From a virus: a stretch of DNA of 64,000 nucleotides. The notes beneath the pieces are model-generated. The model had not been told where the DNA came from and made no database searches. It saw only the letters and a program-made list of their open reading frames with translations. Of the stretch, positions 46,706-62,772 are shown one piece after another (the first letter of the stretch is position 1; each line of letters begins with the position of its first letter). The stretch is taken from IMG/VR virus record IMGVR_UViG_3300009418_004817, positions 1-64,000 of that record. One strand, given 5' to 3'. The position numbers and the translations under genes were made by a program.

Positions 46706-47678
46706 ATATTCCTTCATTAATTTCATAATATGGCCAAACAAATCTTTCTCTGTTCGGCTGCTTAACAGCCCAGCTCCACATTCTAGTAAGACCTTCTTCA
46801 AGATCGGTTAAATGTTTAAAGTCAAGCAATTCAACTGATTTTTGCCAAGTGCTCCAAGCATGTTTTGCTTCATGTCTTTTTTCCAAATAAATTGGTTCTA
46901 AATTGGTACCAGAAATTTTTATTAAAGTTTCACAGGTTTCTTTTATGGTCGACTCTCTTGTTCCGCCTAAATTTATAGTTTGATCAACACAAGAATCCCT
47001 CTGAGAGGCATTCCAAAATGGCTCTAACGAATCATCAACATAACTAAAGGCTCTTGTCTGCAATCCGTCTCCAAAAATAGTTGGGGCTTGCTCATTTAAA
47101 ATTTGAAACATCCAAATACCTAAAACATTTCTATACTTATCCCAAATATTTTGCTTAATGCCGTAAAAATTATGTGGCCTAATGATGGTATATTTTAGCC
47201 CATGTTGTTCATAGGCTATTTTCAAATCTTGCTCAACAGAAAATTTCGCAACACCATAAGGATCAATCGGAGCCTGTTGCATATCTTCATGGAAAGGCGG
47301 ATCATGTCTATTTCCATATACTGACATTGAACTGGCAAACACAAACCGCTCAACATTGTACATTATACTGCAGTTGATCAAGTTAACAGAAGCAATTAAA
47401 TTATTTTCATAATTAAACTTTCTAACAAATGGACTCAGCCCCTCGGCGGCGTATGCAGCAAAGTGATAAACTATATCAGGCTTGTATTTTTCAAAAACTT
47501 TCGAAATATCATCATATACCAAATCCAAACAATAAAAAACAACTTCTTTATTAATGTTTTCTTTATATCCGCCAGATAAATTATCAATACCGACAACCTT
47601 ATGATCGGTGTTATCAATTATCCAATCGGCCAGGCGGGAACCTAAAAGTCCAGCTACTCCAGTAATTAATATATTCAT
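46686..47678 (-). CDS. UDP-glucose 4-epimerase-like SDR
   Basis: The 330-residue protein starts MNILITGVAGLLGSRLADWI (Rossmann TGxxGxxG). It has H-F-A-A-Y-A-A-E, F-A-S-S-M-S-V-Y-G and the Y-G-V-A-K active site. These are the GalE/WbpP-type features, as is the N-L-G-G-T-R-E segment in the C-terminal domain. It probably interconverts UDP-sugars for the island. TAATG overlap with the fucosyltransferase-like gene. The substrate (UDP-Glc, UDP-GlcNAc or uronate) cannot be decided; a UDP-uronate is attractive because a sugar dehydrogenase is encoded two genes upstream. Length is typical. Confidence 0.85.
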   Translation of the reverse strand: MNILITGVAGLLGSRLADWIIDNTDHKVVGIDNLSGGYKENINKEVVFYCLDLVYDDISKVFEKYKPDIVYHFAAYAAEGLSPFVRKFNYENNLIASVNLINCSIMYNVERFVFASSMSVYGNRHDPPFHEDMQQAPIDPYGVAKFSVEQDLKIAYEQHGLKYTIIRPHNFYGIKQNIWDKYRNVLGIWMFQILNEQAPTIFGDGLQTRAFSYVDDSLEPFWNASQRDSCVDQTINLGGTRESTIKETCETLIKISGTNLEPIYLEKRHEAKHAWSTWQKSVELLDFKHLTDLEEGLTRMWSWAVKQPNRERFVWPYYEINEGIYGYWKK

Positions 47679-48607
47679 TAGATTTCATTCCTATCTATTC
47701 CATATTTTTTAAAATATAGATCATCAGCGCTGCCCCACGAAAACCAGCCCGGATAATTTGTTTCGCCCAAGTTCCTACGATCTTTAGGTGCTTTAGCGAT
47801 TTTCCACGGACTAAAAATAGCCACCTTTTCTGCTCCGCTAAGTGTAGCCGCCCACCAAGAGAACGTGCTATTAAATATTATAACCTGATTGAAGCTTCTT
47901 ATTAAGTTAAAATCGTCCATAAAATCATCACGCAATCCTCCAGAGCCGTCAATTGTTTCTTTTCCATTGCAATGCACAACAGGTTCCAGATCGGAAAAAC
48001 CTTCCACAAGGTGATTTATATATTCTAACGATTGCTCTGGCTCAACCCATGGAGAATTTGAAGGAGGGTTCGGGCCGATAGAAATTTCGTGCCTAATTCT
48101 CTCTATATCTTCAAGAGTGTAAGGGGACCATTTCTCCGCATCAGTAACAATATGAAGCCTATCATATTCAAACGATTGCAAAGCTTCCTTGAACGAATCA
48201 GCTGTGATATGATTCTTGTTGTGGCTAACTTGAACAAGCCTGTTCTGAAGTCTTAAATGCAATATTACATCCTTCTTATTCGTAATTGAAATCGAAGGAA
48301 ACCACCGCCTTATCTCAGACAAAAATGTCTTAAACACCTTAAAATCTTCAAAATAGCCATTAACCACTATATTACAATCCGGCAAATCGGAAAACAACAC
48401 TTTTTTATAATTTTCATCACTTATAACAAGGCTAGACAACGGAACAGGGTTGGGATTAACCGACTGGGATATGCCCATCTCGGGAATTGCTCGATGCTCT
48501 AAAAACAAGCCATGACGCTCGGCTAACAGCCTGGCCATGCAATACTGAAACAGGTTATTTCCGAACCCAATTGTCAGATTTGCTCTAACTGTTCCCTGTT
48601 TCTTCAT
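47678..48607 (-). CDS. GT11-like fucosyltransferase family protein
   Basis: The 309-residue form (start 48607) has G-F-G-N-N-L-F-Q-Y-C-M-A-R near the N-terminus, the GxGNxxFQYAxA signature of GT11 alpha-1,2-fucosyltransferases. It also has the strand I-L-H-L-R-L-Q (family H-x-R-x-x-D/G) and F-N-S-T-F-S-W-W-A-A-T-L-S, matching the S-x-F-S-W-W-A-A-x-L donor-site motif. An 8-codon longer start at 48631 is possible. It overlaps the sugar dehydrogenase by 23 nt. With the GDP-fucose-synthase-like SDR further along, fucose or a related 6-deoxyhexose is a plausible donor. The H-x-R motif is slightly off consensus, so activity is likely but not certain. Confidence 0.75.
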   Translation of the reverse strand: MKKQGTVRANLTIGFGNNLFQYCMARLLAERHGLFLEHRAIPEMGISQSVNPNPVPLSSLVISDENYKKVLFSDLPDCNIVVNGYFEDFKVFKTFLSEIRRWFPSISITNKKDVILHLRLQNRLVQVSHNKNHITADSFKEALQSFEYDRLHIVTDAEKWSPYTLEDIERIRHEISIGPNPPSNSPWVEPEQSLEYINHLVEGFSDLEPVVHCNGKETIDGSGGLRDDFMDDFNLIRSFNQVIIFNSTFSWWAATLSGAEKVAIFSPWKIAKAPKDRRNLGETNYPGWFSWGSADDLYFKKYGIDRNEI

Positions 48608-49694
48608 ATCTAAATAAGTCCCCGTATGCATTTCTCAATTTGTCTATAACTTCTGTACTCTCTCTCACAACGACATCAAAGCCGCACTCTGCCAAGGCAA
48701 CCGCATATTTCAACTGTTGTGATTCTTCAAGAGAAGCAACGCCCTTTTTATATGTAACGCCGTCAATCTCGACCGGTACGGCTTTATCATTCTTATCAAT
48801 GAAGTCTTTTACTTGAAAGTCTAAATGCTTGGTGTTAATCGCGTTAGATGCCTGGCAAATGTCTGCCGGCAGATCATTTAATTCGCAGCACCTGATAAAG
48901 GCTCTTGTGTCTCTTGGGAAACAGGGGCCGCCGAATCCAAAACCGTAGCCCAAATATTTTGAATTAACTCTGCTATCTCCCGCAACAGCAGCCAACACCT
49001 TATGGGGATCAGCCCCCATTTTTACTGCCAAATCGCCGACCATGTTGGCATAAGAGATTTTAACAATAAGAATACAATTAAGAGAGATTTTTATTAATTC
49101 GGTCTCCAATCTAGAGTTTTTAAAAATGCTAGGTTGGTTCAGGCACATCTTGGCATAAACCTCTTCCACTTCATTTGCTGCCTGTTCATTGTCTGCTCCA
49201 ATGTAGACACAATCAGGATATGCTTGATTTCTCATAATTGTGCCTTGTGCAATCATCTCGGGGTTGTAAGTTACAATCCAATTATAAGGCTGCAGCCTAT
49301 CAGATACAGTATCTGAATAACCTGGATTTACATTTGAAGAGATGACAAGATGTTTTTGGTCGCTTTGGTGTCCCAGTTCAATCAAGGAGCTTACAACAGC
49401 CTCCACTTGAGAAACATCATATTTGCCATCTGGGTCCGACGTGGTTCTGACTAATACAAAAACAAGCTCCGCATGTTCTATTGTTTTTACTAAATCTGTT
49501 GTTGCAATAAAATTTTTACTAGTGGAGAGATGTTCATTAACGCCGGGCTCATATGATATCAGAGTCTTATTGTTGATTAAGTCAACATAGTCCTGATTAA
49601 TATCACAACCAACTACGTTATATCCCGCACCTTCAAGCGAAAGAGAGAAACACAACCCCAATCTTCCTATACCGATTACAGATAAATTATTCAT
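48585..49694 (-). CDS. UDP-glucose/GDP-mannose dehydrogenase family protein
   Basis: The 369-residue protein has an N-terminal Rossmann segment (S-V-I-G-I-G-R-L-G-L). It also has S-N-V-N-P-G-Y and Y-N-P-E-M-I-A-Q-G, the helix E-L-I-K-I-S-L-N-C with Lys202, and the active-site G-G-P-C-F-P-R-D with Cys258. The family oxidises a nucleotide sugar twice to the uronate using NAD. It is about 60 residues shorter than typical UGDs (about 430), with a reduced C-terminal nucleotide-binding domain. GGAGGTTGC precedes the ATG, which overlaps the next stop (ATGA). A uronic acid in the glycan would make it acidic, in line with the nonulosonic acid genes. Confidence 0.85.
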   Translation of the reverse strand: MNNLSVIGIGRLGLCFSLSLEGAGYNVVGCDINQDYVDLINNKTLISYEPGVNEHLSTSKNFIATTDLVKTIEHAELVFVLVRTTSDPDGKYDVSQVEAVVSSLIELGHQSDQKHLVISSNVNPGYSDTVSDRLQPYNWIVTYNPEMIAQGTIMRNQAYPDCVYIGADNEQAANEVEEVYAKMCLNQPSIFKNSRLETELIKISLNCILIVKISYANMVGDLAVKMGADPHKVLAAVAGDSRVNSKYLGYGFGFGGPCFPRDTRAFIRCCELNDLPADICQASNAINTKHLDFQVKDFIDKNDKAVPVEIDGVTYKKGVASLEESQQLKYAVALAECGFDVVVRESTEVIDKLRNAYGDLFRYEETGNS

Positions 49695-50590
49695 CTTGCA
49701 ACCTCCTTAAAGAATTTCTCGTAATTTTTAGCTGCCTTGACCATTGAAATGGGTGACTCGATCTCGTTATTGCAGGTTTTACCATAGTCTAGTTGGGGAG
49801 GGCGAGGGTCCTCTAAAAAAGAAAAATCCCACTCTTCTTCTTGAACTATAGTTGCATCTTTTCCGGCTATTTCTTTTGTGCCGCCAGACGATGAACAAAC
49901 AATTTGACAACCACACGCTCTTGCATCGATCACTACATTCGGACAATGATCCAGATAAGCCAAATGTATAAAATATTTTGATGCCTTGAATAGCGACAAC
50001 AAAATATCCGAATCCAAGTTCCCAACATAAAATATCCTAGGATGCTCTACAATCTCATCTGGGTTCGGGCCAGCTACAATCAAACAGTCCTCTTCGTGTG
50101 AGAAGTTTAAAAAATATTCTATATTTGACTTTAACCTTTTAAACACATGCCAGTGTGACGCGCAGGACCAAATGTTGTTATATTTCTCGCGATATTCTTG
50201 AAATCCGGGACTAACTGTCTGTATGTTCAGCATATCGGCCCCATTATTGACAATGCAATAATTATCGTGTTTCCCAAACCACTTAAAAATCAAATCCTTG
50301 TTAAACTGTGTTTGGAAAACAATGCCGTTTGCTCTGTCATAAGTTTTTCGAATATTGTAATTCATCTTATCACAATCAAAATTAGCATTAAAATATATCC
50401 CGTCCAACCGCTGAATCATTGGAAGATCCGGCCTAATGCCAATGGATTCAATAAAAGTTAGTTTTAAATCATACGGAAAACAAGATTTAAAAGTCGTTCC
50501 GCGTAATTCAAGATATTTCATTAATTTCTGAGCAAAATAGTTGGGCCCAGAATTAGAATTTAAATTAACGTTCTCTAAAAAGACATTCAC
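49691..50590 (-). CDS. Glycosyltransferase, GT4-like
   Basis: The 299-residue protein has an N-terminal N-S-G-P-N-Y-F-A-Q-K-L, the glycine-rich acceptor-side loop of GT-B enzymes, then I-V-N-N-G-A-D and the C-terminal donor domain. That domain includes C-L-I-V-A-G-P-N-P, I-F-Y-V-G-N-L, H-L-A-Y-L-D-H-C-P-N-V-V-I-D-A-R-A-C-G-C and S-S-S-G-G-T-K-E-I-A-G, which is the typical E/D-x7-E-like donor site in a shortened form. A GTG start overlaps the upstream stop (GTGA). The fold is clear; donor and acceptor are not predictable. It is shorter than most GT4 enzymes (about 360-400). Confidence 0.78.
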   Translation of the reverse strand: MNVFLENVNLNSNSGPNYFAQKLMKYLELRGTTFKSCFPYDLKLTFIESIGIRPDLPMIQRLDGIYFNANFDCDKMNYNIRKTYDRANGIVFQTQFNKDLIFKWFGKHDNYCIVNNGADMLNIQTVSPGFQEYREKYNNIWSCASHWHVFKRLKSNIEYFLNFSHEEDCLIVAGPNPDEIVEHPRIFYVGNLDSDILLSLFKASKYFIHLAYLDHCPNVVIDARACGCQIVCSSSGGTKEIAGKDATIVQEEEWDFSFLEDPRPPQLDYGKTCNNEIESPISMVKAAKNYEKFFKEVAR

Positions 50591-51333
50591 AGCGAAGCCA
50601 GCCTTTGATAAGGCTTCAGGCTGCGTATGGTTTGCTCAGTCATAAGCTGATCTGTTCTGTTGACTCGATCATCAGACAGTGGGTTCAATCGATTATAAAC
50701 ATATAAAACTTCACCAATAGCCTTAAAATGCGCTGGACCAGACATCTCAGCCATTGGCCACATCATGGCTTGATCGCCAGTCGTTGACCAAAACTCGCCC
50801 GTCTTGTTCATCAGATCTTTTCTTTTTATGTTGCAAAACAATTGTTTCCGAAACGTTCCCAAATGAGAAAATTCCCAAGTTTTACTCCTAATTGAACCGG
50901 CCCAATAATGTGAATTAATTTTAGGATTTACCACTTCTCCAGTTGGCTCAACAACATAAGAGCCGTTTGTCATCCAGATTTTAGATGATTCATAAACCTC
51001 ATTTAGTTTACTTAACACATTTGAATTGTACAACCAATCGTCTCCATCCAATATAACAACAATTGTATCATCTCGTAGTGAATGAATTACATTATATAAA
51101 TTTTCCATCTTTCCCTTGTTAAAAGGATTAATTTTAAATTCAAATTTTCCCCGAATCAAAGAATTGTTTTCAATATATTCCTCAACAATAGAAGCGGTAC
51201 CATCTGTTGAATGATCATCTATATATACAATATCATATTCATCATAATTCTGATTAATAACAGAAGACAAATTTCTACTAACCCAAGCTTCACAATTAAA
51301 GGCCGGAATGACAATTGTAAAATGTTCTTTCAT
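50587..51333 (-). CDS. Glycosyltransferase family 2
   Basis: The 248-residue protein starts MKEHFTIVIPAFNCEAWVSR and has the GT-A marks of family 2: V-I-P-A-F-N near residue 10, the Y-I-D-D-H-S-T-D-G-T nucleotide-binding acidic pair near 37-46, and V-I-L-D-G-D-D-W (DxD) near 93-100. A later G-D-Q-A-M-M-W is in the position of the ED catalytic helix. It is expected to make an inverting transfer from an activated sugar at the cytoplasmic face; no membrane segment is seen. ATGA overlap with the preceding GT and GTGA overlap with the next, so it is part of a block of four transferase genes. Confidence 0.87.
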   Translation of the reverse strand: MKEHFTIVIPAFNCEAWVSRNLSSVINQNYDEYDIVYIDDHSTDGTASIVEEYIENNSLIRGKFEFKINPFNKGKMENLYNVIHSLRDDTIVVILDGDDWLYNSNVLSKLNEVYESSKIWMTNGSYVVEPTGEVVNPKINSHYWAGSIRSKTWEFSHLGTFRKQLFCNIKRKDLMNKTGEFWSTTGDQAMMWPMAEMSGPAHFKAIGEVLYVYNRLNPLSDDRVNRTDQLMTEQTIRSLKPYQRLASL

Positions 51334-53426
51334 TGTTTACTAACACGATTCCAAAATACACCCCTCCTAGACTTAAGATAATCAATAATACTGTCTACAT
51401 CGTCAGTATTAAACCATTCTTCATCAAGATGTTGTACGTTTTCATTAAGCTCCAGCTCGCATCCCAATAATTTAGCCTCTATAACATAACGAGGACAAGT
51501 ATCCAACCCAGAAGGTTTAAAACAAATTCCCTTAGCAGTTGCAAGCTTTTCTAAAACTTCTAAATGGGTGATATCACTAATAACGTCATATTCTATATTA
51601 TTTTCAGTACACCACTTTTCAGAATCCGCAAAGCCCTTTACCCAAGAACGAGAACCCAAAACAAGATATTTCTTCCTGTCCGCTGGCAATTGGTTTCTTA
51701 AGTTTTTTATTTGATCAAAAAATTCGCCATCAAAAATAGAACCCAAAACAAACAACTTGCTCTCATCTAAACCATTGAGACTGTTTTTATAAATCTCCAT
51801 TTGTTTTTGAGACATAAAATGCGTCATAACAGAGCGATTAACAAAGTTGGCAATTATTTTTCCCTTATCGGTCTCTGCATAGTCACATTCTTTCTCTTCT
51901 AGCATTTGATACAAGAATGGGTTCCTATATTCACAGAATTTATAATCAAATTCAATAAAATGATATTTAACCTTACTGTCAATAACATATTGGAGAATCT
52001 CATCGCTCATCTGTGAAATATTTCCAAAAATCCAAGTTGATTCTTTGTTAGAATCAATGAAGGTATTCGAAAGCTGGGCACAATTGATGGTTGATTTTGT
52101 CCCGGGGCTATCATCTATTAGAGCCTGCAAGCTTAACTCTGCCCCACCTAAAACCTGATGAGAAAAGAAATCGCTGACAAAAATAAAATCTTTTTGTTCT
52201 GCCACTGCAGGCTTATTATTAAGAAATATACTATTAACAAATTTCTTATATAGAACCTCTTTTGTAAAATTCTTGCGAATCCACTTATTCAGCTTTTTTG
52301 CTTGACTTTTAAATCGATTATAATCTTTATATACTTCGCGGAGCCTCTTCTTATATGAAATCTCGTTGGCATAACACCACAGAGAATCCTTTTGTAAGAC
52401 ACCATCCCAATGAGCTTCTTCTTGAATAGGCTGTAGAGTATATTCAACTTTCGCGAAATGCGCTTTATTCTTTGTCTTTCCTGTTTTCTTGTTCTTTATA
52501 GGAACATACAAAAAGTCAACATGCCCGCTCCAATCAGGAGCGACAACAGGAAGCTCATTATAAGCAGCTTCAAAAATAGGTAAACCAAATCCTTCTCCGT
52601 GTGTTAAACTAACCAATGATTTAATTTTTGAATGTTGATATAGTGCAGTTATCTCGTTCTCGGTCATTGATCCATGAAGAAGATACACTTTACATTTTCT
52701 ATCTTTGTTCTCATTCAATAATTGTGTTATTGCTTTCTCTGTTTCCAGACGATCTTGAGTTGAATCACATTTGATATTACACTTAACAACCAAACCAACT
52801 TCATCGTTTTTAAATTCCTCAACAAACCACTTAATTGTGTTATGCATGTTTTTTCTCGGAGAAATTTGTGCAACAGTCAGAAAATTAAAATTATGATCCA
52901 AATTTAAATCCAATTTTGCCGGCTCAAAGTCTCTGACGGGATAGTGAACTACCTCAATAGGAGTTGTGCATCGAAAATCCTGAATAACTTCTCCTGTTTC
53001 TTTGTTTTGAGCCTGATAAGATGAATTCTCATAAACCTGCTTGGAATGTTCAGAAACAGTAATGATTTTATCCACCAATATAGACTTTTCAATCCACTGT
53101 GGGGCGACTTTGGTAGTTTCAATGCCAGCAGTTACGCCAATATTGACTGGGGCCATTTTCTCCCATTCATTCGGAATAGTTACTTGAACAGATATATCGA
53201 ATTGACCTCCGGAGTTAATATAGGCATATGTTTTATCTAATGTTGCATCAATCCAACGTCTTTCTTCGTTGTCTTCCCATGTCCAACCGGTTTGGCCCCA
53301 ATTGATATTTATGAGATAAATATCGAATAGATCTTCACGACTTCTCAGCGAACGAAGAACAAAACGACCGTGTTCACCATATCCAGAACGACTTAATACC
53401 GGCGCTCTAACAATAATCTTTTTCAT
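51330..53426 (-). CDS. Double glycosyltransferase (GT4-like module plus second GT-B-like module)
   Basis: The 698-residue protein starts at 53426, where GGTGGA and the ATGA overlap with the previous gene support this ATG. The first 390 residues are a GT-B enzyme with S-G-Y-G-E-H-G-R-F, F-L-T-V-A-Q-I-S-P-R-K-N and H-G-E-G-F-G-L-P-I-F-E-A-A, the donor-binding E-x7-E site. Residues 420-698 look like a second, reduced GT-B half (L-G-G-A-E-L-S-L, L-V-L-G-S-R-S-W-V-K-G, C-F-K-P-S-G-L-D-T-C-P-R-Y-V-I-E-A-K-L-L-G-C) that lacks a complete acceptor domain. This suggests a bifunctional or self-regulated transferase. Substrates are unknown. Confidence 0.8.
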   Translation of the reverse strand: MKKIIVRAPVLSRSGYGEHGRFVLRSLRSREDLFDIYLININWGQTGWTWEDNEERRWIDATLDKTYAYINSGGQFDISVQVTIPNEWEKMAPVNIGVTAGIETTKVAPQWIEKSILVDKIITVSEHSKQVYENSSYQAQNKETGEVIQDFRCTTPIEVVHYPVRDFEPAKLDLNLDHNFNFLTVAQISPRKNMHNTIKWFVEEFKNDEVGLVVKCNIKCDSTQDRLETEKAITQLLNENKDRKCKVYLLHGSMTENEITALYQHSKIKSLVSLTHGEGFGLPIFEAAYNELPVVAPDWSGHVDFLYVPIKNKKTGKTKNKAHFAKVEYTLQPIQEEAHWDGVLQKDSLWCYANEISYKKRLREVYKDYNRFKSQAKKLNKWIRKNFTKEVLYKKFVNSIFLNNKPAVAEQKDFIFVSDFFSHQVLGGAELSLQALIDDSPGTKSTINCAQLSNTFIDSNKESTWIFGNISQMSDEILQYVIDSKVKYHFIEFDYKFCEYRNPFLYQMLEEKECDYAETDKGKIIANFVNRSVMTHFMSQKQMEIYKNSLNGLDESKLFVLGSIFDGEFFDQIKNLRNQLPADRKKYLVLGSRSWVKGFADSEKWCTENNIEYDVISDITHLEVLEKLATAKGICFKPSGLDTCPRYVIEAKLLGCELELNENVQHLDEEWFNTDDVDSIIDYLKSRRGVFWNRVSKQ

Positions 53427-54682
53427 TGTATTTCCACCATCTTCCAAGCTTGATAATGTTTTCTAGTGTCCCAAGAGCCATATTTTTCACATATGTCATC
53501 AATAGTTTTAACCCATTGATCTTGAAAATTATCAAAATTGTAATTCATCAAAACGTGCTGCAGACCCCTTTCTCCGAGACGCTCTCTTTCTTCTTTGGAT
53601 TTCTCAAACATCTTGACCATCGCAGCCACAACATCGTCTCCGTTGAGTCGATCTTCATAAATCCAAGGAATTTCCTGAGATCCGATAATTGATTTGGAAA
53701 CCGGTTCTAATCCAATACCAAACCACTCCTCGCCATTAGTAACCTGTTCTTGCAAGCCACCAGTCATAGTCACTATGATCGGTGTTTGACATGCTAGTGA
53801 TTCTAGTGTTGCAAGACCAAATCCTTCAGCATCGGAAACATTTATTGTACAATCTGCAATATTATACATCATAGCTAATTGTTGAGGAGGGTATTTTTGA
53901 GTTGATAATAAAACTTGCCCATCGGACATCTCCAATTTTTCAATAATAGCTGTCAAATCTTGACCATTCGGATCTTTTGGATCTGTATGCATAATAAGGC
54001 AAGCTTCGTCGCGACCCACTTTATCAAGAAATTCTTTAAACCAAAAAATCAAACTGCCAGACTGTTTTCTTCTAGCATTTCGATTGTTCCACAAAAATAC
54101 GAATTTATCTTTTGCATCACTACTCAAAGTTTGAATTTTTGAATTCATAATATCGATTTGTGAAAGTTTCTTAAAAATGTTTGTATTAACTGCATGTGGA
54201 ATATAGTGTCTCTCCACTTCTGGAGCAACATTTGCGACAATATCATCTGTGACTTTCGATATTGTGCAGACAACATCATTTGATATATACCATTTTCTAT
54301 TATATGTTGGATATGGGTAGTTATCCCAGACATGATAATAAACCATTGGACACAGTGCTCTAATTTCATGCTCTATTTGCCACAACCAGCCCCAAAAGCG
54401 AGGATCTGTCATAAACCATACCATATCTGGTTTCTCTTTTCTGACAGCAGATCTTATGATGTCTGCGTTTCCATATCCCTCAACTGGATGGATGATCCAA
54501 TCATCTTTCCATTCTTCTGTTCTAATGGGGTCGCTATTTTGGTGTTGAATGGCGCCGCCTAAGCTGACAATTTGATAACGGCCAGACTTTAACAGAGCTT
54601 CAATAACATATTTTGTTTGAGTTCCAACTCCAGAAGGTGCCAGAGGGTGATCAGAGATGGTTAAAATTTTTCTTTTTTTCAT
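53423..54682 (-). CDS. Glycosyltransferase, GT4-like
   Basis: The 419-residue protein starts at 54682, where GAGGTAAT precedes the ATG; the open frame extends 45 nt further without a site. The N-terminal domain shows S-D-H-P-L-A-P-S-G-V-G-T-Q-T. The C-terminal domain has F-L-W-N-N-R-N-A-R-R-K-Q, L-L-S-T-Q-K-Y and the donor site S-D-A-E-G-F-G-L-A-T-L-E-S-L-A-C, a full E-x7-E motif. This is the first gene of the glycan island in transcription order and directly follows the Cas4-type nuclease gene, whose stop it abuts. It is a retaining GT-B enzyme with unknown donor. Confidence 0.86.
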   Translation of the reverse strand: MKKRKILTISDHPLAPSGVGTQTKYVIEALLKSGRYQIVSLGGAIQHQNSDPIRTEEWKDDWIIHPVEGYGNADIIRSAVRKEKPDMVWFMTDPRFWGWLWQIEHEIRALCPMVYYHVWDNYPYPTYNRKWYISNDVVCTISKVTDDIVANVAPEVERHYIPHAVNTNIFKKLSQIDIMNSKIQTLSSDAKDKFVFLWNNRNARRKQSGSLIFWFKEFLDKVGRDEACLIMHTDPKDPNGQDLTAIIEKLEMSDGQVLLSTQKYPPQQLAMMYNIADCTINVSDAEGFGLATLESLACQTPIIVTMTGGLQEQVTNGEEWFGIGLEPVSKSIIGSQEIPWIYEDRLNGDDVVAAMVKMFEKSKEERERLGERGLQHVLMNYNFDNFQDQWVKTIDDICEKYGSWDTRKHYQAWKMVEIQ

Positions 54683-54683
54683 A

Positions 54684-55463
54684 TTACCTCGTACAATGTT
54701 CTGTATTATTAAATTCACACCTTCCACAAGAAAGCCTGTTTTTGATGTATCTTTTTCTTGAAATACTATATAATGCTTTGTTTAATAATTTTAGAGCATT
54801 GTCTGTTTTTTTTGGACCACTAGTGACTCTGAAAATCTCAACATTGTCTTTTTTTGCTGTTCTCTTCAATAAAGCAAAATGAGTCTCAATGTTTTTGGGA
54901 TCAACACCGTGCTTTTTAGCAAAATAGTGCTTATACAGTGTTAACTGGTAAGTTACCATTGGTTCCGCTTTTTTTCGAGCATCCCAACCCCATCCACAAG
55001 TCTTCCAGTCGATAATGTGATATTTTCCATCAGACGTTTTAACAACCAAATCAATAAAGCCTTTAAAAGAATAATCGTCTAAATTCTGTAAATCAACTGG
55101 TACCTTAAGCAATTCTTCAGAAGAAATTACAGTGTAGTCTCCCAAATACTCTGAAACTGCCGGCAAAATCAAATCAACTATTTTAGTTCCTTGTGTTTCC
55201 ATGGAACTGACCAGATCTTGCTTTAATTCGACTTTTTTATCAATAAGCTCGGTTAGTTCTTTCTCGAATTGTTCAAAAAAGTATTGCTCCGCTCCGTTAT
55301 TTTTCTTTTCGGCAAGAAGCTTTTCACAGGTCGAATGAATTGCTTTACCAAAAGCAGTGAATTCATTGCCCTCAAACTTTGTAACTCTGTCAACATATGT
55401 TAATTTGTGATAATAAGGACATTGAACCCAATTGCGCAGTTCCGAAAATGATATGTGTGGCAT
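54684..55463 (-). CDS. PD-(D/E)XK nuclease, Cas4/RecB-type with Fe-S cysteines
   Basis: The 259-residue protein has the Cas4/AddB-like nuclease layout: an early V-Q-C-P-Y-Y (Cys15), G-F-I-D-L-V with Asp138, I-I-D-W-K-T with Asp152 and Lys154, and Q-L-T-L-Y (motif QxxxY). The C-terminal C-G-R-C-E-F-N-N-T-E-H-C adds three more cysteines. Four Cys in this order usually bind a 4Fe-4S cluster that closes the nuclease fold. Phage versions act as 5'-3' exonucleases in recombination or end processing. GAGGTC precedes the ATG. The gene is not near other replication genes, so its place at the edge of the glycan island is notable. Confidence 0.86.
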   Translation of the reverse strand: MPHISFSELRNWVQCPYYHKLTYVDRVTKFEGNEFTAFGKAIHSTCEKLLAEKKNNGAEQYFFEQFEKELTELIDKKVELKQDLVSSMETQGTKIVDLILPAVSEYLGDYTVISSEELLKVPVDLQNLDDYSFKGFIDLVVKTSDGKYHIIDWKTCGWGWDARKKAEPMVTYQLTLYKHYFAKKHGVDPKNIETHFALLKRTAKKDNVEIFRVTSGPKKTDNALKLLNKALYSISRKRYIKNRLSCGRCEFNNTEHCTR

Positions 55464-55498: not shown

Positions 55499-56170
55499 CT
55501 ATTCTTCGTATTCTTTAAAGACTAAATTTTCAATTTTTTCATAAAGTTTGGGACTGATCTTGGATAAGTACCCAGGATCTTTGAGAAAATAAAAATCAAA
55601 GCCGTCTGCAAAGTATTCTCTCAGCGATGTTGCTCCATATGGAGAAGAAAATAATCCCATAGTCATATAAGTGAGTTTGTCGTATCCAATATGTTGATAT
55701 AAATATTCATCAAAATCTTCATTATAATCTAATTCATCAAAATATTCTTTTGAAACACCGTATTCCTCGGCTTTCATTATTTCATAAAGTCTGTTTCTTT
55801 TTCCGAGAAACTCTTTAATAATTGTTTGATCAGAATAGATGTACTCAGCTAGTCTTTCTTCGACCAAGTGAGCTATCTCATGAACAAGGTCTTCAACCAT
55901 GTTATCTTCATCACTTTGGTAATTGGTAATATATATTGTTCCATCTTTATAAATCGAATTTAGACTTCTTTCATCCAGTTCATCAAATTGACCAATAAAG
56001 ATAGTTTCTAAGCCGTATATCAAATGCTCCGGAACTATTTTTTTTATGAAATTCAGTACATAGTCCAAATTAAAACCATTTGGCAATGAATCCTTGATAT
56101 AGGTATAGATATTGTTAATTAATACTTTTTGTTTTGACTCTTTGAGTGTATTTTCGATATACTCGTTCAC
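55499..56170 (-). CDS. Zinc metallopeptidase, anthrax-lethal-factor-like (HExxH)
   Basis: The 223-residue protein has D-L-V-H-E-I-A-H-L-V-E-E with the zinc-binding HExxH at residues 97-101 and a downstream S-L-R-E-Y-F-A-D-G-F-D-F-Y-F with Glu185 as the candidate third ligand. This spacing (about 85 residues) and the E-Y-F-A-[DE]-[GA]-F motif resemble the lethal-factor-like (ATLF/M34-type) gluzincins. No signal peptide is seen, so it should act in the cytoplasm of the infected cell or in the virion. A GTG start is used. It lies between the small acidic 95-residue protein and the nuclease. The substrate is unknown. A role in processing a phage or host protein is inference. Confidence 0.75.
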   Translation of the reverse strand: MNEYIENTLKESKQKVLINNIYTYIKDSLPNGFNLDYVLNFIKKIVPEHLIYGLETIFIGQFDELDERSLNSIYKDGTIYITNYQSDEDNMVEDLVHEIAHLVEERLAEYIYSDQTIIKEFLGKRNRLYEIMKAEEYGVSKEYFDELDYNEDFDEYLYQHIGYDKLTYMTMGLFSSPYGATSLREYFADGFDFYFLKDPGYLSKISPKLYEKIENLVFKEYEE

Positions 56171-56477: not shown

Positions 56478-57815
56478 TTATAGTAATTTAGCTGCAAGAG
56501 ACGCAACTTTTGAGCGTTCGCCTTTCTGCAAAGTTATGTGGCCGGCCAAAGCCTCATTTTTGAACTTTTCTACTGCATAAGTGAGACCGTTGGTGGTTTC
56601 ATTGATATAAGTATTGTCGATTTGTTCAATATCGCCAGTCAAAATAATCTTTGTGTTTTCACCCACTCTTGTTATTATAGTCTTTAATTCGTGAGTTGTT
56701 AAATTTTGTGCTTCATCAATCATAATAAAAGCGTTCGATATAGAGCGGCCTCTAATGTAGGTTATTGCCTCCATCTCTATTATACCATCTTTCATGTAAC
56801 TTTCCAAGGTTAATTTGTCATTTCCCATTAAATATTGCAAATTATCTTGAATTGGCAGCAGCCATGGCATCATTTTGTCTTCCATTGATCCAGGCAAAAA
56901 ACCGATGTCTCTCCCAACGGGCTGTATTGGCCGAGATATGACCATTTTCTTATATAGAGGCTCTTGTAGTCCTCCTTTCCTTCCACGCTGTTCTAGGGTC
57001 TGTGAGAGGCCCGCAGCGATGGCACAGAGGGTCTTACCGCTGCCGGCACGGCCGACGAGGGTGATAATCTTAATTTCCGGATCCATCAGCAGATCAAAAG
57101 CAAATGTTTGTTCTTTATTTCGTGGCTTTATTCCCCAAATCCCTGATTTAAACTCGGGAACCTTATAGAGAGGGCTTTCATAACTCTCAAATCTCGCGAG
57201 GGCAGATTTTTTCTCGTTAGAGTTCGAAACTAACATAACATACTCATGAGCATGCAACACAATCTCATCTTTATCTAGAAATATTTCTTCTTTTTCATAA
57301 AATCTATCAATGATCTCTTCATCGATCAAGTGAGTCGAAAATCCGGTAAATATTTCAGTTCTGTCTTTTACAACTTGTTCTGTTCTATAATCTTCACACA
57401 ACAAACCAAGTGCATCACATTTAACTCTCATATTAATGTCACGAGAGACAACAATGATCTTCTTATTGGGGTTATTTTGCTTTTCCGTTAAAGCTGTGAT
57501 AATAATTTGAGTATCTGAATTTTCTATATCCAATCCAGGTGGACATAATAGAGGATCGTAACCTCTTACGAATAACAGGCCTTTTCCTTTTTCGATTCGA
57601 ACACCCTTCTGAAGACTGCCCTTTATACGCAAGTTATCAAGGATACGAATCGCACCTCTGGCGTGGGCACCAACAGTGTCCTGTCGTTTCTTGTTATTGT
57701 CGATTTCCTCTAAAACTTTTAAAGGAACAAGAATATCGTTTCTACCAAAAGAGAAAATCGAACTGCGATCTGTTAAGATAGCGCTAGTGTCTAGCAAATA
57801 GGTCTTTTTCTTCAT
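56478..57815 (-). CDS. phoH: PIN-PhoH fusion ATPase
   Basis: The 445-residue protein (start 57815) is a full PIN-PhoH fusion. The PIN ribonuclease domain occupies about residues 1-140 with acidic residues in Y-L-L-D-T-S-A-I-L, L-E-E-I-D, D-T-Q-I-I-I-T-A and V-V-S-R-D-I-N-M. The PhoH ATPase follows, with Walker A G-R-A-G-S-G-K-T near residue 253 and Walker B F-I-M-I-D-E-A-Q-N near 367, then I-L-T-G-D-I-E-Q-I. PhoH2-type proteins couple RNA cleavage to ATP-driven unwinding. Many marine phages carry only the ATPase part, so the complete fusion is less usual. A GTG three codons upstream is an alternative start. Confidence 0.9.
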   Translation of the reverse strand: MKKKTYLLDTSAILTDRSSIFSFGRNDILVPLKVLEEIDNNKKRQDTVGAHARGAIRILDNLRIKGSLQKGVRIEKGKGLLFVRGYDPLLCPPGLDIENSDTQIIITALTEKQNNPNKKIIVVSRDINMRVKCDALGLLCEDYRTEQVVKDRTEIFTGFSTHLIDEEIIDRFYEKEEIFLDKDEIVLHAHEYVMLVSNSNEKKSALARFESYESPLYKVPEFKSGIWGIKPRNKEQTFAFDLLMDPEIKIITLVGRAGSGKTLCAIAAGLSQTLEQRGRKGGLQEPLYKKMVISRPIQPVGRDIGFLPGSMEDKMMPWLLPIQDNLQYLMGNDKLTLESYMKDGIIEMEAITYIRGRSISNAFIMIDEAQNLTTHELKTIITRVGENTKIILTGDIEQIDNTYINETTNGLTYAVEKFKNEALAGHITLQKGERSKVASLAAKLL

Positions 57816-57841
57816 TGTGCCCACTATAAATAGTTTTTATA

Positions 57842-58129: not shown

Positions 58130-58845
58130 AGCGCCCTTAACATATTTGCTCTTTGTTGTCTGTGATTGCTTTCGGGTCGTTGTGCTACGTAAAGATCCAA
58201 CGTTTTTTCTGGATCTTCTCTCAAAATACGTCTAAATCCACTAACACCGGTAGAATTAGCAATTGCAAGTGCCCAAGATAACCTTTCTGATGGCCAACCA
58301 GCATCTCTGGCATAGTATGCTGCAGCTAATACTCTGTCTCTCCACTCCAGCAATTGATAACCTGCTCCATAAGGGTATATATGTAGCGTTAGATCGACTA
58401 AGTTGACCCATTGACGGGTGTAGTATGGACAAGAGCCGGCGGCTTGTATGACGCTGCTAGCGTCCCATGGGGACCACTCTAAAATACCCTCCGGAGGTTG
58501 AAAATGGAAGAGTCCATGAGCGCCACAATCTGTCCGGACAATATCATAGGGTCTTTTGCCAATTCGATCGGGCGCAGCTATAATTTGTATAGCTTCAAGC
58601 TCAAATCTTCTGAGGCGTGTGACTCGCGAGTCGAAATCGTGAGAATTTCCCATAAATTCAATATATTGTTCTAAATCCATATAACAAAATTCGAATTCAG
58701 CTGGACAATAATCATAATTTATGGGCAAACACGAAGGATAACTCATCAAATATTCGAATTCGTGTATTTCAGTGTTAGTAATTGAAGCGAGAGAAATATT
58801 GGAGCTGCACAAAACAATTAAAGCAATTAAATTAAATAATTTCAT
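58126..58845 (-). CDS. Exported protein, possible muralytic enzyme
   Basis: The 239-residue protein starts MKLFNLIALIVLCSSNISLA, a clear signal peptide (basic n-region, hydrophobic core, A-S-x-A type end near residue 20). The mature part has several Cys, compatible with a periplasmic, disulfide-bonded protein. The segment D-C-G-A-H-G-L-F-H-F-Q-P-P-E-G, then W-D-A-S-S and a downstream helix E-W-R-D-R-V-L-A-A-A-Y-Y-A-R recall transglycosylase-like folds (A-x-G-L-x-Q), but the catalytic Glu is not certain. It overlaps ClpP by 14 nt and the holin-like gene by 4 nt. A secreted endolysin is a reasonable but unproven assignment. Confidence 0.6.
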   Translation of the reverse strand: MKLFNLIALIVLCSSNISLASITNTEIHEFEYLMSYPSCLPINYDYCPAEFEFCYMDLEQYIEFMGNSHDFDSRVTRLRRFELEAIQIIAAPDRIGKRPYDIVRTDCGAHGLFHFQPPEGILEWSPWDASSVIQAAGSCPYYTRQWVNLVDLTLHIYPYGAGYQLLEWRDRVLAAAYYARDAGWPSERLSWALAIANSTGVSGFRRILREDPEKTLDLYVAQRPESNHRQQRANMLRAL

Positions 58846-59434
58846 CTACCAGGCCATATTCTAGACATTGTTCAGCATTAAACCATAAATCGTGCTTAAG
58901 AATTTCTTCTAGCTTCTTTTTAGGTATTTTTGTATATTTCGTATAAATATCTTTGATCATTTTCATAAATCGATCACAATTTTTCATATCATCTTTGATT
59001 TCTTCGTATTTTCCCCAAATTCCACTTGAAAGCTGGTGAATTAGCATGTAAGAATGTGCTGTGATATATCTTTCTTCCGCAACAACGCTCATGAGTGTCG
59101 CTGCAGAAGCAGCACAGCCCTCAACTATGCTATGTACCGGTGTTACTGATTTTCGTATGTAATCAATTGTCGAAAAAGCAGCAAAAACACTGCCTCCAAA
59201 GCTTTGTATGTGAAGATGTATATTTGGAACAGCTGCATCAAGTGTGTTCGATCGATTTATGAGTTCTTTGTCTAGCTTTCGAAGTGATTTGTTTAAAGTT
59301 AGGATTTTTGTTCTTTTTACTTCGGAATAAAAATAGATTCTGTTTTGTTCTATTATTATGGTGTCATCATCAGTAGATGAAGAATCTTCTTCATTTGATT
59401 GTGACGCAGCCCAAAATAAATCGACTTTTTTCAT
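58832..59434 (-). CDS. clpP: ClpP-type serine protease
   Basis: The 200-residue length is normal for ClpP. The nucleophile is Ser110 in E-G-C-A-A-S-A-A-T, the catalytic His is His133 in Y-M-L-I-H-Q-L-S-S-G, and the Asp is Asp182 in K-H-D-L-W-F-N-A-E-Q-C-L-E-Y-G-L-V-D. The oxyanion loop is Q-S-F-G-G-S-V-F, with the ClpP-like Gly-Gly. No AAA+ partner is visible in the window, so it would rely on host ClpX/ClpA or work alone. An alternative is a head-maturation protease, which in some phages is a ClpP fold, but no capsid genes are near. The tmRNA lies 1.5 kb upstream on the same strand, which fits a tag-and-degrade branch. An acidic, Ser-rich N-terminal extension precedes the core. Confidence 0.88.
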   Translation of the reverse strand: MKKVDLFWAASQSNEEDSSSTDDDTIIIEQNRIYFYSEVKRTKILTLNKSLRKLDKELINRSNTLDAAVPNIHLHIQSFGGSVFAAFSTIDYIRKSVTPVHSIVEGCAASAATLMSVVAEERYITAHSYMLIHQLSSGIWGKYEEIKDDMKNCDRFMKMIKDIYTKYTKIPKKKLEEILKHDLWFNAEQCLEYGLVDEII

Positions 59435-59670: not shown

Positions 59671-59800
59671 TTCTTGTCCTCCTTCTTATATACCTAAGTT
59701 TTAATTCTTTGTATATCATACAAATTGAAACTATCAAAAAACATATGTACATCACAACAATAGACGATATCAAAGCCATAAATAACCAATGTTTTTCCAT
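59657..59800 (-). CDS. 47-residue single-pass membrane protein
   Basis: This short ORF reads MEKHWLFMALISSIVVMYIC, continues with a hydrophobic run to about residue 30, then basic R-Y-I-R-R-R-T-R-N-E-K-K. It overlaps the stop of the FtsZ-like gene (TAATG) and ends 14 nt inside the 78-residue gene. One membrane helix followed by a strongly basic tail gives an N-out/C-in topology. It has no good ribosome site of its own and would depend on translational coupling with the FtsZ-like gene. It could be a membrane tether for that GTPase, by analogy with small FtsZ anchors; this is inference. Confidence 0.5.
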   Translation of the reverse strand: MEKHWLFMALISSIVVMYICFLIVSICMIYKELKLRYIRRRTRNEKK

Positions 59801-60951
59801 TATCTGATTTTTAAAAACCTTTTAAGCTCTTCTAGACGTTTTTCGGGTGCAGCGAGGCCGCCAATCATCGTATAAGCCGTCAATTTCTCTCTTTTGGAGT
59901 CTTCGTAGATGCCACGATGAATAATTGCTCCATCTGTCAAAGATCCGAGCGTGTCAAAGCCATATTCGATGTAATCCATCAATCCAGCGACCTCTTCATA
60001 CATCGTAGTACCTCCAACAACGATTGAAGCAGCTGCTGTGGCTGTTTTTAGGTCAAATCCTCCGGCTAAAAGCGTTTTTTCGAGGTTTGCCTTCAATGCG
60101 TTGGCAATAGAGGTCTCGTGATCGACCTCCCTGACTGTTGTAACACCCATGATCATGCACCCCTGGCTCTTCATGACCGAGTCATAGTCCATAGGGTCAA
60201 AGGACGTATAGTCGCTATTTTGGGCACATAGGACGTTAAATACGTGAAACAGGCCGGCAACTGTGTTGTTTAGTGTCGGCCAGAACTTCTTGACGGTCAA
60301 AGATGGGTATAATTTCTTGATCTTGTCATTATCAACCATAATAAGCGGTGCAAAATCACCATTTGCAGCCCGAACACACAGTTCTGATACCTTATTGAAG
60401 GCATTTTTGGCCACAATAGACGATGCACACTCACCATTTGTCGGCAAAGACACAATAACACCCACTCTTTCGCTGGCATCTTCTCTTCCGACGTATGTAA
60501 AGTAGCGTTTTGCAATATCAACTAGTGCATTTACGCTTCCGCCGCCTGTACCGCCGGCCGCGCCGACACAAACAAGGATTCGATCGATGTTTTCACCGAA
60601 AATTTCCCTTAATTTGTTAAAAATCTCTTGACTTCTGCCTTCAAAAGCCTCTCTGCCTCTTTCCTGATTCTTGCCGGCGCCTTGTCCACTAAAATAGTCC
60701 ACAAAAAACTTGTGTTCTTCTGGAAGTTCCAATAAATTAAGGTCAGATTGCGCTGTGTTGAACGCAATAGTCTTCTTATAGCCGAGATCATAGAAAGCTT
60801 TGGCAATTCTACCTCCTCCTTGGCCAGATCCAATGACAGCATAAGTCAAAGCACCTCCGGATTCGTCTTCGACACCGTTTTTTTGAGTTTGTTCCTCTAA
60901 ATTTGGGTCAAGATCTTCAATATCTAATGTTGGAATGTCTAATTCAATCAT
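59800..60951 (-). CDS. FtsZ/tubulin-like GTPase
   Basis: The 383-residue form starts at 60951; the longer open frame would run into the tmRNA. Features are V-I-G-S-G-Q-G-G-G-R-I near residues 39-49 (T1 loop), A-F-N-T-A-Q-S-D-L (T2/T3 region), V-G-A-A-G-G-T-G-G-G-S near 129-139 (the tubulin/FtsZ GTP signature, usual GGGTGxG), and F-D-P-M-D-Y-D-S-V-M near 251-260, the T7-type catalytic loop that hydrolyses GTP of the next subunit. Together they indicate an assembling GTPase, similar to phage PhuZ/TubZ or archaeal FtsZ-like proteins. GAGGAG lies 12 nt before the ATG, inside a 14 bp palindrome. The role could be positioning phage replication or interfering with host division. Confidence 0.85.
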   Translation of the reverse strand: MIELDIPTLDIEDLDPNLEEQTQKNGVEDESGGALTYAVIGSGQGGGRIAKAFYDLGYKKTIAFNTAQSDLNLLELPEEHKFFVDYFSGQGAGKNQERGREAFEGRSQEIFNKLREIFGENIDRILVCVGAAGGTGGGSVNALVDIAKRYFTYVGREDASERVGVIVSLPTNGECASSIVAKNAFNKVSELCVRAANGDFAPLIMVDNDKIKKLYPSLTVKKFWPTLNNTVAGLFHVFNVLCAQNSDYTSFDPMDYDSVMKSQGCMIMGVTTVREVDHETSIANALKANLEKTLLAGGFDLKTATAAASIVVGGTTMYEEVAGLMDYIEYGFDTLGSLTDGAIIHRGIYEDSKREKLTAYTMIGGLAAPEKRLEELKRFLKIR

Positions 60952-60963: not shown

Positions 60964-60977
60964 CTCCTCTAGAGGAG
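60964..60977. promoter_or_regulatory. 14 bp palindrome joining tmRNA 3' end and FtsZ-like ribosome site
   Basis: The perfect palindrome CTCCTCTAGAGGAG spans the last bases of the tmRNA acceptor stem and the GAGGAG ribosome site of the FtsZ-like gene. On the minus strand the tmRNA end (CCTCCT) could pair with GAGGAG. When the tmRNA folds, its 3' bases pair instead with its own 5' end (GGGGGTG), leaving the ribosome site free. This gives a possible switch in which tmRNA folding or processing allows translation of the GTPase. The pairing is directly visible; the regulatory reading is inference. Confidence 0.45.
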
Positions 60978-61318
60978 GTGGCGAGAATCGAACTCGCGTC
61001 CTAAATGCTTCAGTTAATTTTTCGTTCACAAGGTTAGTTAGATTTTAGCCTCTAACAAGCGTTTTATGAAAAAAAGAGACCCAACCACTCTTTCAAAACC
61101 ACCTACTACCTGTAGGGTAACTTCATTTTTGATCTTGACTTTGGTTTACAGGGTGTCAAGCTCAAAAAAACCCTGTTCTTACACTCTAGGCTGCTAGTGC
61201 GTAAGAATTGTCGTAAATACCATCATTGGCAATTATCATTTGAGCGTTTTTAATGTGCCGCGCTCCCCACATCCTTGCAAAATTAACTTCTTTCACTCAG
61301 TCGAACCCTTTCACCCCC
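60973..61318 (-). ncRNA. ssrA: tmRNA (transfer-messenger RNA), phage-encoded
   Basis: The RNA is one-piece, about 346 nt. The 5' end GGGGGTGAAAGGGTTCGACT has the conserved GGxTTCGAC of the tmRNA D-loop region. The 3' end has the T arm GCGAGTTCGATTCTCGC and the acceptor strand CACCTCC, which pairs with GGGGGTG over 7 bp (one G-U). CCA is not encoded. The tag frame begins near GCC at 61230-61228 and reads ANDGIYDNSYALAA before TAG at 61188-61186, ending in the usual YALAA that ClpXP recognises. The RNA frees stalled ribosomes and tags nascent proteins for proteolysis. The strong promoter and leader RNA upstream are on the same strand. A partner smpB is not in the window. Confidence 0.93.
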
Positions 61319-61562
61319 TAATAATATAAATAGTTTGTTAAAATAGAATCCGAAAACAACTTCATGAGGGGTCGATCTCTCGCTCCACGACCATACTAGC
61401 CTACCTTCACGCCTCGTTGTAGACATTGAGGAGAAACTCATTGTATAATGCGGTCGGTTCCGCGCATCCTCATGAAGCCGTTGGTCAAAGCTACGAAAAA
61501 CCGTTGTTTAACAACATTTGACCGCCTCCTTTATTAAAAAAATGATCCATGATATACATAAT
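61319..61562 (-). ncRNA. Structured leader RNA upstream of the tmRNA
   Basis: The transcript from the promoter at 61569-61596 would begin near 61562 and pass this 240 nt region before the tmRNA. Helices seen on the minus strand: 61517-61523 with 61483-61489 (7 bp), a long-range helix 61468-61477 with 61360-61369 (10 bp, CTTCATGAGG/CCTCATGAAG), a hairpin 61448-61467 flush with one end of that helix, and a hairpin 61370-61392 flush with its other end. This is a compact multi-helix junction with no spacer bases at the helix ends, unlikely by chance. No match to a known class comes to mind (not RNase P, 6S or hammerhead). It may be a cis-regulator or an independent sRNA freed by tmRNA processing. 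Confidence 0.65.
61491..61517 (-). CDS. Leader ORF of 8 codons
   Basis: Just after the promoter an AAAGGAGG site stands 7 nt before ATG. The frame reads M-L-L-N-N-G-F-S and stops at TAG. The ORF lies in the loop of the 7 bp helix 61517-61523/61483-61489, so a ribosome translating it would open this helix. Strong ribosome site, short peptide and overlap with RNA structure are the hallmarks of attenuation-type leader peptides. It could report ribosome availability to the downstream RNA, a logical input for a tmRNA locus. Regulation is inference. Confidence 0.45.
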   Translation of the reverse strand: MLLNNGFS

Positions 61563-61568: not shown

Positions 61569-61596
61569 ATTATAACACATTTGACCAAAAAGTCAA
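61569..61596 (-). promoter_or_regulatory. Strong sigma70-type promoter for leader RNA, tmRNA and downstream genes
   Basis: On the minus strand TTGACT (61596-61591) and TATAAT (61574-61569) are separated by 16 bp, with TGT right before the -10 (extended -10). This is the best housekeeping-type promoter I found in the window. The -35 overlaps the stop codon (TGA at 61595-61593) of the upstream gene, and TTGAC with GTCAA forms a 5 bp inverted repeat that could also be an operator or a weak hairpin. It would let host RNA polymerase express the tmRNA locus early, without the phage late sigma factor. Confidence 0.8.
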
Positions 61597-61967
61597 GGAA
61601 TAATTTCACTTTCATCAAAATAATAATTTATCTTATATCGTCTGCTAAATTTATTCATATCTTGTATACTAATACCCAGAAATCGAGCGGCTTCGCCCTT
61701 TGTTTTGGTTGCCGTGGAAGTAAATTTTAATATTGCATCTCTTACAAGATCTGGAATTGCCAGCCATATCGGCAATCCATAAAGATAACCGCCCGCAGCC
61801 CGATTTGCAAGTTCTAGTTTAAGCCCAATAACTTCTTCAAGGGTAAGTTTATTCAACATTACCTCAAATTCTTCTGTTGATTTGCCTTTTTTGCGAAGTT
61901 GTGTTATTATGCTGTGATTTTTGGTAGATTTTTTTCTTCTACCGGTGAGTTTTCGTTCCCAGGCCAT
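61593..61967 (-). CDS. Small basic protein with HTH-like C-terminal segment
   Basis: The 124-residue protein has a very basic N-terminus (W-E-R-K-L-T-G-R-R-K-K-S) and a helical middle (L-T-L-E-E-V-I-G-L-K-L-E-L-A-N-R). The C-terminal part, T-K-T-K-G-E-A-A-R-F-L-G-I-S-I-Q-D-M-N-K-F-S-R-R-Y, has the form of a Fis-type helix-turn-helix, with A-A-x-x-L-G-I and a basic second helix. A DNA-binding regulator is likely; it is encoded directly before the tmRNA promoter and its stop codon lies in the -35 box, so it might regulate that promoter. This last step is inference. Confidence 0.65.
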   Translation of the reverse strand: MAWERKLTGRRKKSTKNHSIITQLRKKGKSTEEFEVMLNKLTLEEVIGLKLELANRAAGGYLYGLPIWLAIPDLVRDAILKFTSTATKTKGEAARFLGISIQDMNKFSRRYKINYYFDESEIIP

Positions 61968-61968: not shown

Positions 61969-62772
61969 TTAAAGCTCTAGTTCTAGTTCCTCTTCGCCTT
62001 CTGGAGCGCCGAATTCCTCGGGACTCTCTGCAGTTGCCTCATCATATTCTGGCGTAGTGGGCTCTTCTAAGCCCATCTTCATTTCATCATCAAATTTATC
62101 AAAATAAAGTTTAATATTGGTGATCAAATAATCGTAAAATAACTCTCGATCTTCACTATTGGCAAGAAGCTCATATGAATCCAAAATATTCTTTTCAATT
62201 TTCTTGAAAGTGGATGCAGCCATGTTTCTTCCGGTTTCATCTTCGCCTTCAATCGAAAAATCGTCCTCTTCATCTTCTGGTTTTGGGTCTGGGTCAATAT
62301 CAATAAATGCTTCATCGCCCAAATCTGGGCCTTCGTCATCACCAATAGTGATATCAATATCTTCATCTTCTTCTTCCAGTGAGCGCAATTCTGCTTCTTT
62401 AATACTACCTCTCAGATTTGCTACAGCTCTTGATGGAGCAAGTGCGTTCTTAATCCCTTTTACAACATGGGCCCGAAAGGATTGTTTTTGTTCTTCTGCT
62501 GTTGTAAGAATTTTATAATCAGTTTCAATAACTGGAATTATTTTCTTCAACAAATCTTCCAATACGTTAATACCGGTGTTTTCATGAGGCGTTTCATCTG
62601 AAATTTCGGCAGCTTCAGTTATAATAAGCTTTCGAATAATACTTCGAAGCTCCTTTTCCTCATTAAGCTGTTGTTTTTCCTCTCTTTTACGTTTTTCTAA
62701 AACGATGTTAATAATTTTTCGTATAGATTCTCGCAAAACGAGTTCTTCAGCAAATTCTTGACGATCGATCAT
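61969..62772 (-). CDS. Highly acidic helical protein, scaffold-like
   Basis: The 267-residue protein has an N-terminal part with two similar helices (L-R-E-S-I-R-K-I-I-N-I-V-L-E-K and L-R-S-I-I-R-K-L-I-I-T-E-A), a very acidic middle (about residues 130-180, D/E-rich, including I-D-I-D-P-D-P-K-P) and an acidic C-terminal tail. A good GGAGAC site precedes the ATG. The high charge and helix content recall scaffolding or chaperone proteins of T4-like phages, where similar R-x-I-I-R-x-L-I helices are found. No capsid genes are in the window to confirm this. It overlaps the nucleotidyltransferase gene by 4 nt. Confidence 0.6.
   Translation of the reverse strand: MIDRQEFAEELVLRESIRKIINIVLEKRKREEKQQLNEEKELRSIIRKLIITEAAEISDETPHENTGINVLEDLLKKIIPVIETDYKILTTAEEQKQSFRAHVVKGIKNALAPSRAVANLRGSIKEAELRSLEEEDEDIDITIGDDEGPDLGDEAFIDIDPDPKPEDEEDDFSIEGEDETGRNMAASTFKKIEKNILDSYELLANSEDRELFYDYLITNIKLYFDKFDDEMKMGLEEPTTPEYDEATAESPEEFGAPEGEEELELEL

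Follow-up and report, generated by a model that had tools for sequence, protein, structure and literature searches.

The window, the 64,000-nt stretch of viral DNA analyzed here, carries on its minus strand (61318-60973) what is, with near certainty, a complete one-piece tmRNA gene (ssrA) of the RF00023 family. We consider it probable that this is a vertically inherited phage gene performing ordinary trans-translation with the SmpB protein of the host. ARAGORN places the gene at 60972-61318 with the tag ANDGIYDNSYALAA* and finds no other tRNA-type gene in the 64-kb window, while an Rfam cmscan of the whole window returns a 109.3-bit match to RF00023 (E 8e-42; cut-off 47 bits) spanning the full model, positions 1-374, and no other family at gathering score. 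The first-pass annotation had called a one-piece phage tmRNA here and named ARAGORN and a tmRNA covariance model as the searches to run; both give significant matches, and the call is borne out. That annotation left the minus-strand orientation of the gene unstated.

The two ends of the RNA (60973-61318, from G1 to the discriminator U73 according to ARAGORN, Rfam and a script) fold as had been proposed, into a tRNA-like domain made of an acceptor stem and a T arm with no anticodon arm. By eye and by script, the acceptor stem is 7 bp long (GGGGGUG/CACCUCC) and includes a G3.U70 pair, the T arm (60981-60997, also within the Rfam match) reads GCGAG-UUCGAUU-CUCGC, and GGGUUCGAC is present. The tag reading frame (61186-61230, GCC to GCC UAG; ARAGORN, by eye and script) is the one noticed in the first reading: it opens with the alanine resume codon GCC, has a single UAG stop and encodes a hydrophobic AA end. 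The pseudoknots that had been left to check are there as well, PK1 upstream of the resume codon (61242-61272) and PK2 downstream of the tag (61132-61176); both form crossing helices supported by a shuffle test, in which 9 and 2 of 300 shuffles, respectively, were equally good. The best PK3/PK4 candidate was matched by 52 of 300 shuffles and is not above chance; PK3 and PK4 are missing from some tmRNAs. The three nucleotides after U73 (60970-60972) are CTA rather than CCA, so the CCA of the tmRNA is not encoded. A perfect palindrome, CTCCTCTAGAGGAG (60964-60977), links the 3′ end of the tmRNA to the ribosome-binding site of the adjacent TubZ-like gene by pairing the tmRNA end with the GAGGAG that precedes that gene. 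The ribosome-binding site could therefore be hidden in the unprocessed transcript; complementarity between acceptor ends and ribosome-binding sites is expected anyway, and we thus record this as an observation.

The window comes from a viral record of 75.8 kb that lacks end repeats and is probably a fragment; no SmpB gene was found in it. It belongs to a contractile-tailed phage that encodes baseplate wedge proteins, PhoH, a late-sigma-like factor and an endolysin of the amidase type, together with a large cluster of surface-sugar genes. The nearest named phages in a baseplate comparison are Flavobacterium phage immuto, Microcystis phage Mel-JY01 and the huge phage LR756508, at 29-32% identity; many uncultured contigs are closer (43-54% identity), and the phage collection holds no relatives at the DNA level. 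The sugar cluster (36679-55463) comprises sugar epimerases, glycosyltransferases, an aminotransferase and a radical SAM protein, a content that suggests surface-glycan or modification functions. Next to it, 55499-56170 encodes a protein of 223 aa that has an HEIAH motif and matches PF07737, a zinc metallopeptidase domain in Pfam, below threshold (24.9 bits, cut-off 27.4). Directly downstream of the tmRNA lies a TubZ/FtsZ-like gene (59800-60951, minus strand; PF00091, PF22453). A gene of this kind occurs in the tmRNA neighborhood of just one relative, its protein has no close relatives in viral contigs, and the only relative obtained is the distant phage G gp138 (23.6% identity).

When the other side of the tmRNA is considered, a conserved phage locus becomes apparent. 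It is anchored by a 124-aa HTH-like protein (61593-61967, minus strand), which is 36-55% identical to relatives adjoining tmRNAs, and is preceded by the gene for a 267-aa protein starting MIDRQEF (61969-62772, minus strand). With the HTH family as bait we collected 80 IMG/VR viral loci: the 267-aa gene accompanies the HTH gene in 67, and a PhoH-like gene (56478-57824, minus strand, in the window) is found within 4 kb of it in 43. A tagged one-piece tmRNA lies nearby in 50 of the 80 loci (49 detected by ARAGORN, one by Rfam) and a tag-less tRNA-like form of 82-83 nt in eight; no tmRNA was found in 22, which include short contigs and so offer no proof of absence. The order 267-aa gene, HTH gene, tmRNA is kept in related uncultured phages, and the same pair stands upstream of tmRNAs in contigs found independently, through a tmRNA pattern or baseplate homology. 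A complete gene at the same position among phage genes in many contigs argues for an established phage gene and not a stray host fragment, and on this comparison we take the window tmRNA to be real and established. It could otherwise be a captured host ssrA, or the remnant of integration into one, with no role of its own, given that ssrA is a common integration site and that our scan also yielded contigs with ANDENYALAA genes, probably prophages. Such an origin is disfavored by the conserved phage gene order; moreover, the gene is complete, many contigs have it alongside these same phage genes, no integrase occurs among the neighbors scanned and the tag patterns matched no bacterial genome contig. 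We regard it as very improbable.

The tmRNAs of this lineage differ from contig to contig. The eight tag-less forms (L332:46-127, L333:1501-1582, L334, L335, L336, L337, L233:1501-1583 and L338) score 54.6-72.9 bits against RF00023, have an encoded CCA and A73, share a nearly constant internal stretch, ATTAAAACCTGCAATGG, and sit directly after the HTH gene, where other relatives have a full tmRNA. Four tmRNAs are 471-482 nt long (L263:1622-2102, L264:4644-5114, L265:1500-1973 and L260, the last 482 nt from the start of GGGGGTGAACTGG) and contain a complete frame of 63-69 codons behind AGGAGG (MSEN...YEIR...FVQKKD); ARAGORN misreads the tag in all four. The lengths of the embedded protein vary by whole codons among these contigs, it matches no PHROGs family and nothing in the phage collection, and in a sister contig, L262, the tmRNA is only 243 nt. 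Three further tmRNAs of 381-434 nt (L259:4635-5015, L292:4435-4817 and L312:4372-4805) have in common an extra stretch, GGTAGCCAACACCTTAAGTTGGTAAATGGATTCCCTGA..., in their 3′ halves. On a tree of the HTH protein, which is short and poorly resolved, the three tmRNA states require 11 changes, against 26 with shuffled labels, a clustering that near-identical contigs inflate; the tag-less forms fall among the tagged ones.

The chief doubt about the function of the window tmRNA is its discriminator base. A73 aids alanyl-tRNA synthetase and is usual for alanine charging, without being a defining trait of the RF00023 family; here the base is U73. A73 is present in 36 of 38 distinct one-piece phage tmRNA genes, the other two being the window gene and a false prediction, and by the same test in 48 of 49 lineage tmRNAs, the lone exception being doubtful, with an apparently misplaced stem. 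G3.U70, by comparison, is found in the window tmRNA and in all 49. Alanine charging may therefore be weak, if U73 is a real change that carries a cost, or the record sequence may contain an error. The former case leads to an alternative in which the RNA no longer tags: poorly charged, it would mainly occupy SmpB or ribosomes and so damp trans-translation in the host. This is in keeping with U73 being unique among the tmRNAs checked and with the eight relatives that have just the tRNA-like domain at the same locus, and a molecule similar to that form is a strong inhibitor of tmRNA, perhaps because it titrates SmpB, according to a passage in PMC4131195 that cites Mao et al. 2009. However, an RNA acting in this way would not need the tag frame, the -YALAA end, PK1 and PK2, all of which are intact, and the single base in question could be an assembly error. 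We therefore judge the alternative unlikely and retain ordinary trans-translation as the preferred reading.

The tag itself had been described as novel-looking, and this stands: the exact tag ANDGIYDNSYALAA, searched as degenerate patterns, has no match in the viral or genome contigs, nor do the wider patterns ANDxxYDxxYALAA and ANDG...YALAA in either collection. Such patterns require an exact degenerate match, so near variants may escape, and sequences nearly identical to the record of the window may be missing from the contig collections. Its length was also remarked upon, correctly in so far as 14 aa exceeds the commonest length of 10; within the lineage, where tags run from 10 to 14 aa and many end in YALAA, it stands at the long end yet is not odd. 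Lineage tags differ from one another (for example ANDNVEVDYALAA, ANDADYGLALAA, ANNADYDLALTA and DESQFEYAMAA), and nearly all have a hydrophobic -ALAA, -AMAA or -SLAA end; the tag sequence changes in the lineage while the frame and its end persist. The suggestion that the tag might point to the host did not hold, since no tag pattern matched a genome contig and the host is not inferable from it. Elsewhere in the record (67911-69779), the only large plus-strand gene of its region encodes a protein of 622 aa with a start like that of a lipoprotein, in which MopE-type metal-binding motifs (PF11617) recur. MopE-type motifs are common in Myxococcota, and those of this protein give a weak hint toward such a host.

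A ClpP-like peptidase of 200 aa (58832-59434, minus strand; PF00574, and ClpP structures with a best E of 2e-17) is encoded 1.5 kb downstream of the tmRNA, and the two could be envisaged as a single phage module for tagging and degradation. One relative, L232, has the same order of tmRNA, small ORF and ClpP-like gene. Nevertheless, a ClpP-like gene is present in 9 of the 50 tagged-tmRNA loci against 8 of the 22 loci where no tmRNA was found, and PHROGs places the protein first with head maturation proteases. Since the occurrence of the gene does not follow that of the tmRNA, the loci give no support to a joint module, which we think quite improbable.

The first-pass annotation had also given the gene its own promoter. 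A sigma70-type promoter is indeed present (61569-61596, minus strand; TTGACT-16-TATAAT with TG, 11 of 12 matches, with a transcript start predicted near 61562), but some 250 nt separate it from the tmRNA downstream, and it would give rise to a longer transcript beginning with a conserved structured RNA. Promoter-like or consensus sites also precede this leader RNA in several relatives. The leader (61355-61482, minus strand; core 61370-61433) has a fold common to the intergenic regions of relatives: a closing stem P1, AACGGCUUCAUGAGG / CCUCAUGAAGUUGUU with G-U pairs, encloses a P2 hairpin whose loop GUCUAC pairs with a downstream GUAGGC to form a pseudoknot, then CUAG or CUGG, then a P3 hairpin with a G-rich loop (GCGAGAGA in the window). 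Compensatory changes are evident across 13 sequences: pairing at the P2 and pseudoknot helices amounts to 88.8%, double changes number 17 and the covariation score is 0.416, whereas slid-partner controls reached at most 55% pairing and a score of 0.149. As the structure was drawn from the same 13 sequences, we made an independent test with a model that excluded the window sequence, and the leader was its best hit and only significant match in the 64 kb (31.5 bits, E 3.6e-6; next hit E 1). In several relatives the P1 stem is wholly different in sequence while its pairing is kept (GGCAAGAU/AUCUUGCC, UUGUUAAGAU/AUCUUAACAA, UAUAGGCUGUGU/ACGCAGCCUAUA); in L268, L261, L273, L269 and L247 the best P1 stem given by the script is not clearly the same helix. 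Strong structure by energy alone was considered and rejected (z -1.27, not significant), so the RNA is revealed by comparison only. We hold it very likely that this family, defined by P1, a pseudoknotted P2 and a P3 with a G(C/U)GA(A/G)GA-type loop, is real.

The leader RNA has no match in Rfam 15, whether in the window at gathering score, in 3 kb at E<=5 or in eight relatives at E<=1. Besides tmRNA and tRNA models, these searches gave a single sub-threshold wcaG match, inside the tmRNA and outside the leader element. Permuted-tmRNA matches, below or just over threshold, stretch from the 5′ half of the tmRNA into the leader and reflect shared tmRNA sequence. The leader is probably an undescribed phage small RNA, whose gene we take to share a transcript with the tmRNA here. 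A pattern scan for the element gave 24 contigs, and in 21 of 22 examined it comes immediately behind the HTH gene, in many cases with tRNA-Gly and then the tmRNA after it; in one contig (L356/L372) it sits elsewhere, between small genes. This placement, together with an HTH locus that has the element without a tmRNA (L275), ties the element more to the HTH gene than to the tmRNA. It is possible, though on balance doubtful, that the family acts with the phage tmRNA in the control of ribosome rescue; such a functional link would fall within a lineage whose tmRNAs are tagged, tag-less or bear an embedded protein gene. In any case the leader is a separate lead, for which models and many examples are at hand. 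The leader also contains an 8-codon mini frame, MLLNNGFS* (61491-61517, minus strand), preceded by GGAGG, a strong ribosome-binding site. Inspection of relatives did not show this frame there. Pairing is possible between GGUCAAA, ahead of its AUG, and UUUGACC, immediately past its stop.

Taken with these observations, ordinary trans-translation is favored by the full-length family match, the ARAGORN frame, PK1 and PK2, G3.U70, the gene order and the tag ends, and is opposed by U73, the lack of SmpB in the fragment and a PK3/PK4 candidate at chance level. We infer expression, charging, SmpB use, degradation and a benefit to the phage as follows. A transcript would begin at the promoter near 61569, pass through the conserved leader RNA and enter the tmRNA, whose 5′ end host RNase P would free and whose 3′ end would be trimmed and receive CCA. 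Charged with alanine and bound to host SmpB, the tmRNA would, in the course of infection, rescue ribosomes that have stalled on broken mRNAs, adding ANDGIYDNSYALAA to truncated proteins and so directing them to a Clp protease.

One further phage tmRNA would by itself be minor. Of greater consequence is that a single orthologous locus offers a natural series in which the tag varies or disappears entirely, or the RNA acquires an internal protein gene, so that what a phage gains from a tmRNA becomes testable by comparison, with degradation tagging, ribosome release and interference with the host as the alternatives. In the open-access literature searched, we did not find descriptions of the syntenic series, its tag-less forms, the embedded-frame tmRNAs or the leader RNA.

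Phage tmRNAs are already known, and the window gene joins them. The statement that they are rare in viral genomes needs qualification: they occur in 402 of 18,146 phage genomes (2.3%; PMC9004378), one of our tmRNA pattern scans gave at least 120 matches, and the gene is present in four of the six large relatives examined (LR756508, LR756500, LR756504 and Bacillus phage G). The authors of that survey suggest that phage tmRNAs maintain the hijacked translation machinery or recycle host proteins (PMC9004378). Huge phages can carry tmRNA along with SmpB (PMC7162821), as does LR756504, with a tmRNA and an SmpB gene (LR756504.1:540105-540527; PF01668, E 6e-51); SmpB is absent from the 18 other phage records examined. 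LR756508 has, besides a longer tmRNA, a second, tag-less tmRNA-like RNA of 112 nt (LR756508.1:414804-414915).

The window gene shares with the bacterial one-piece tmRNA (RF00023) the tRNA-like domain, the G3.U70 acceptor stem, PK1, PK2, an alanine-start tag frame and -YALAA, and differs in its 14-aa tag (commonest 10), U73, unencoded CCA, single UAG and phage location. Bacillus phage G, mycobacteriophages such as Bxz1, Streptomyces BE phages and huge phages also have complete ssrA genes, mostly without a phage SmpB (PMC4131195, PMC7162821, PMC11237712); the window gene belongs to another lineage and neighborhood, with a syntenic series of tagged, tag-less and ORF-bearing forms. In the OM43 phage Melnitz, too, an ssrA close to a promoter is associated with a structured RNA (PMC9004378), but there the tmRNA is two-piece and permuted and the structured RNA is a glutamine riboswitch, whereas here the tmRNA is one-piece and the leader has no Rfam family. 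Finally, a 2014 list of phage tmRNAs includes phage G and mycobacteriophages, among them DS6A with a tRNA-like domain only (PMC4131195); DS6A resembles the 82-83-nt tag-less forms of the relatives, whereas the window tmRNA retains its tag and pseudoknots.
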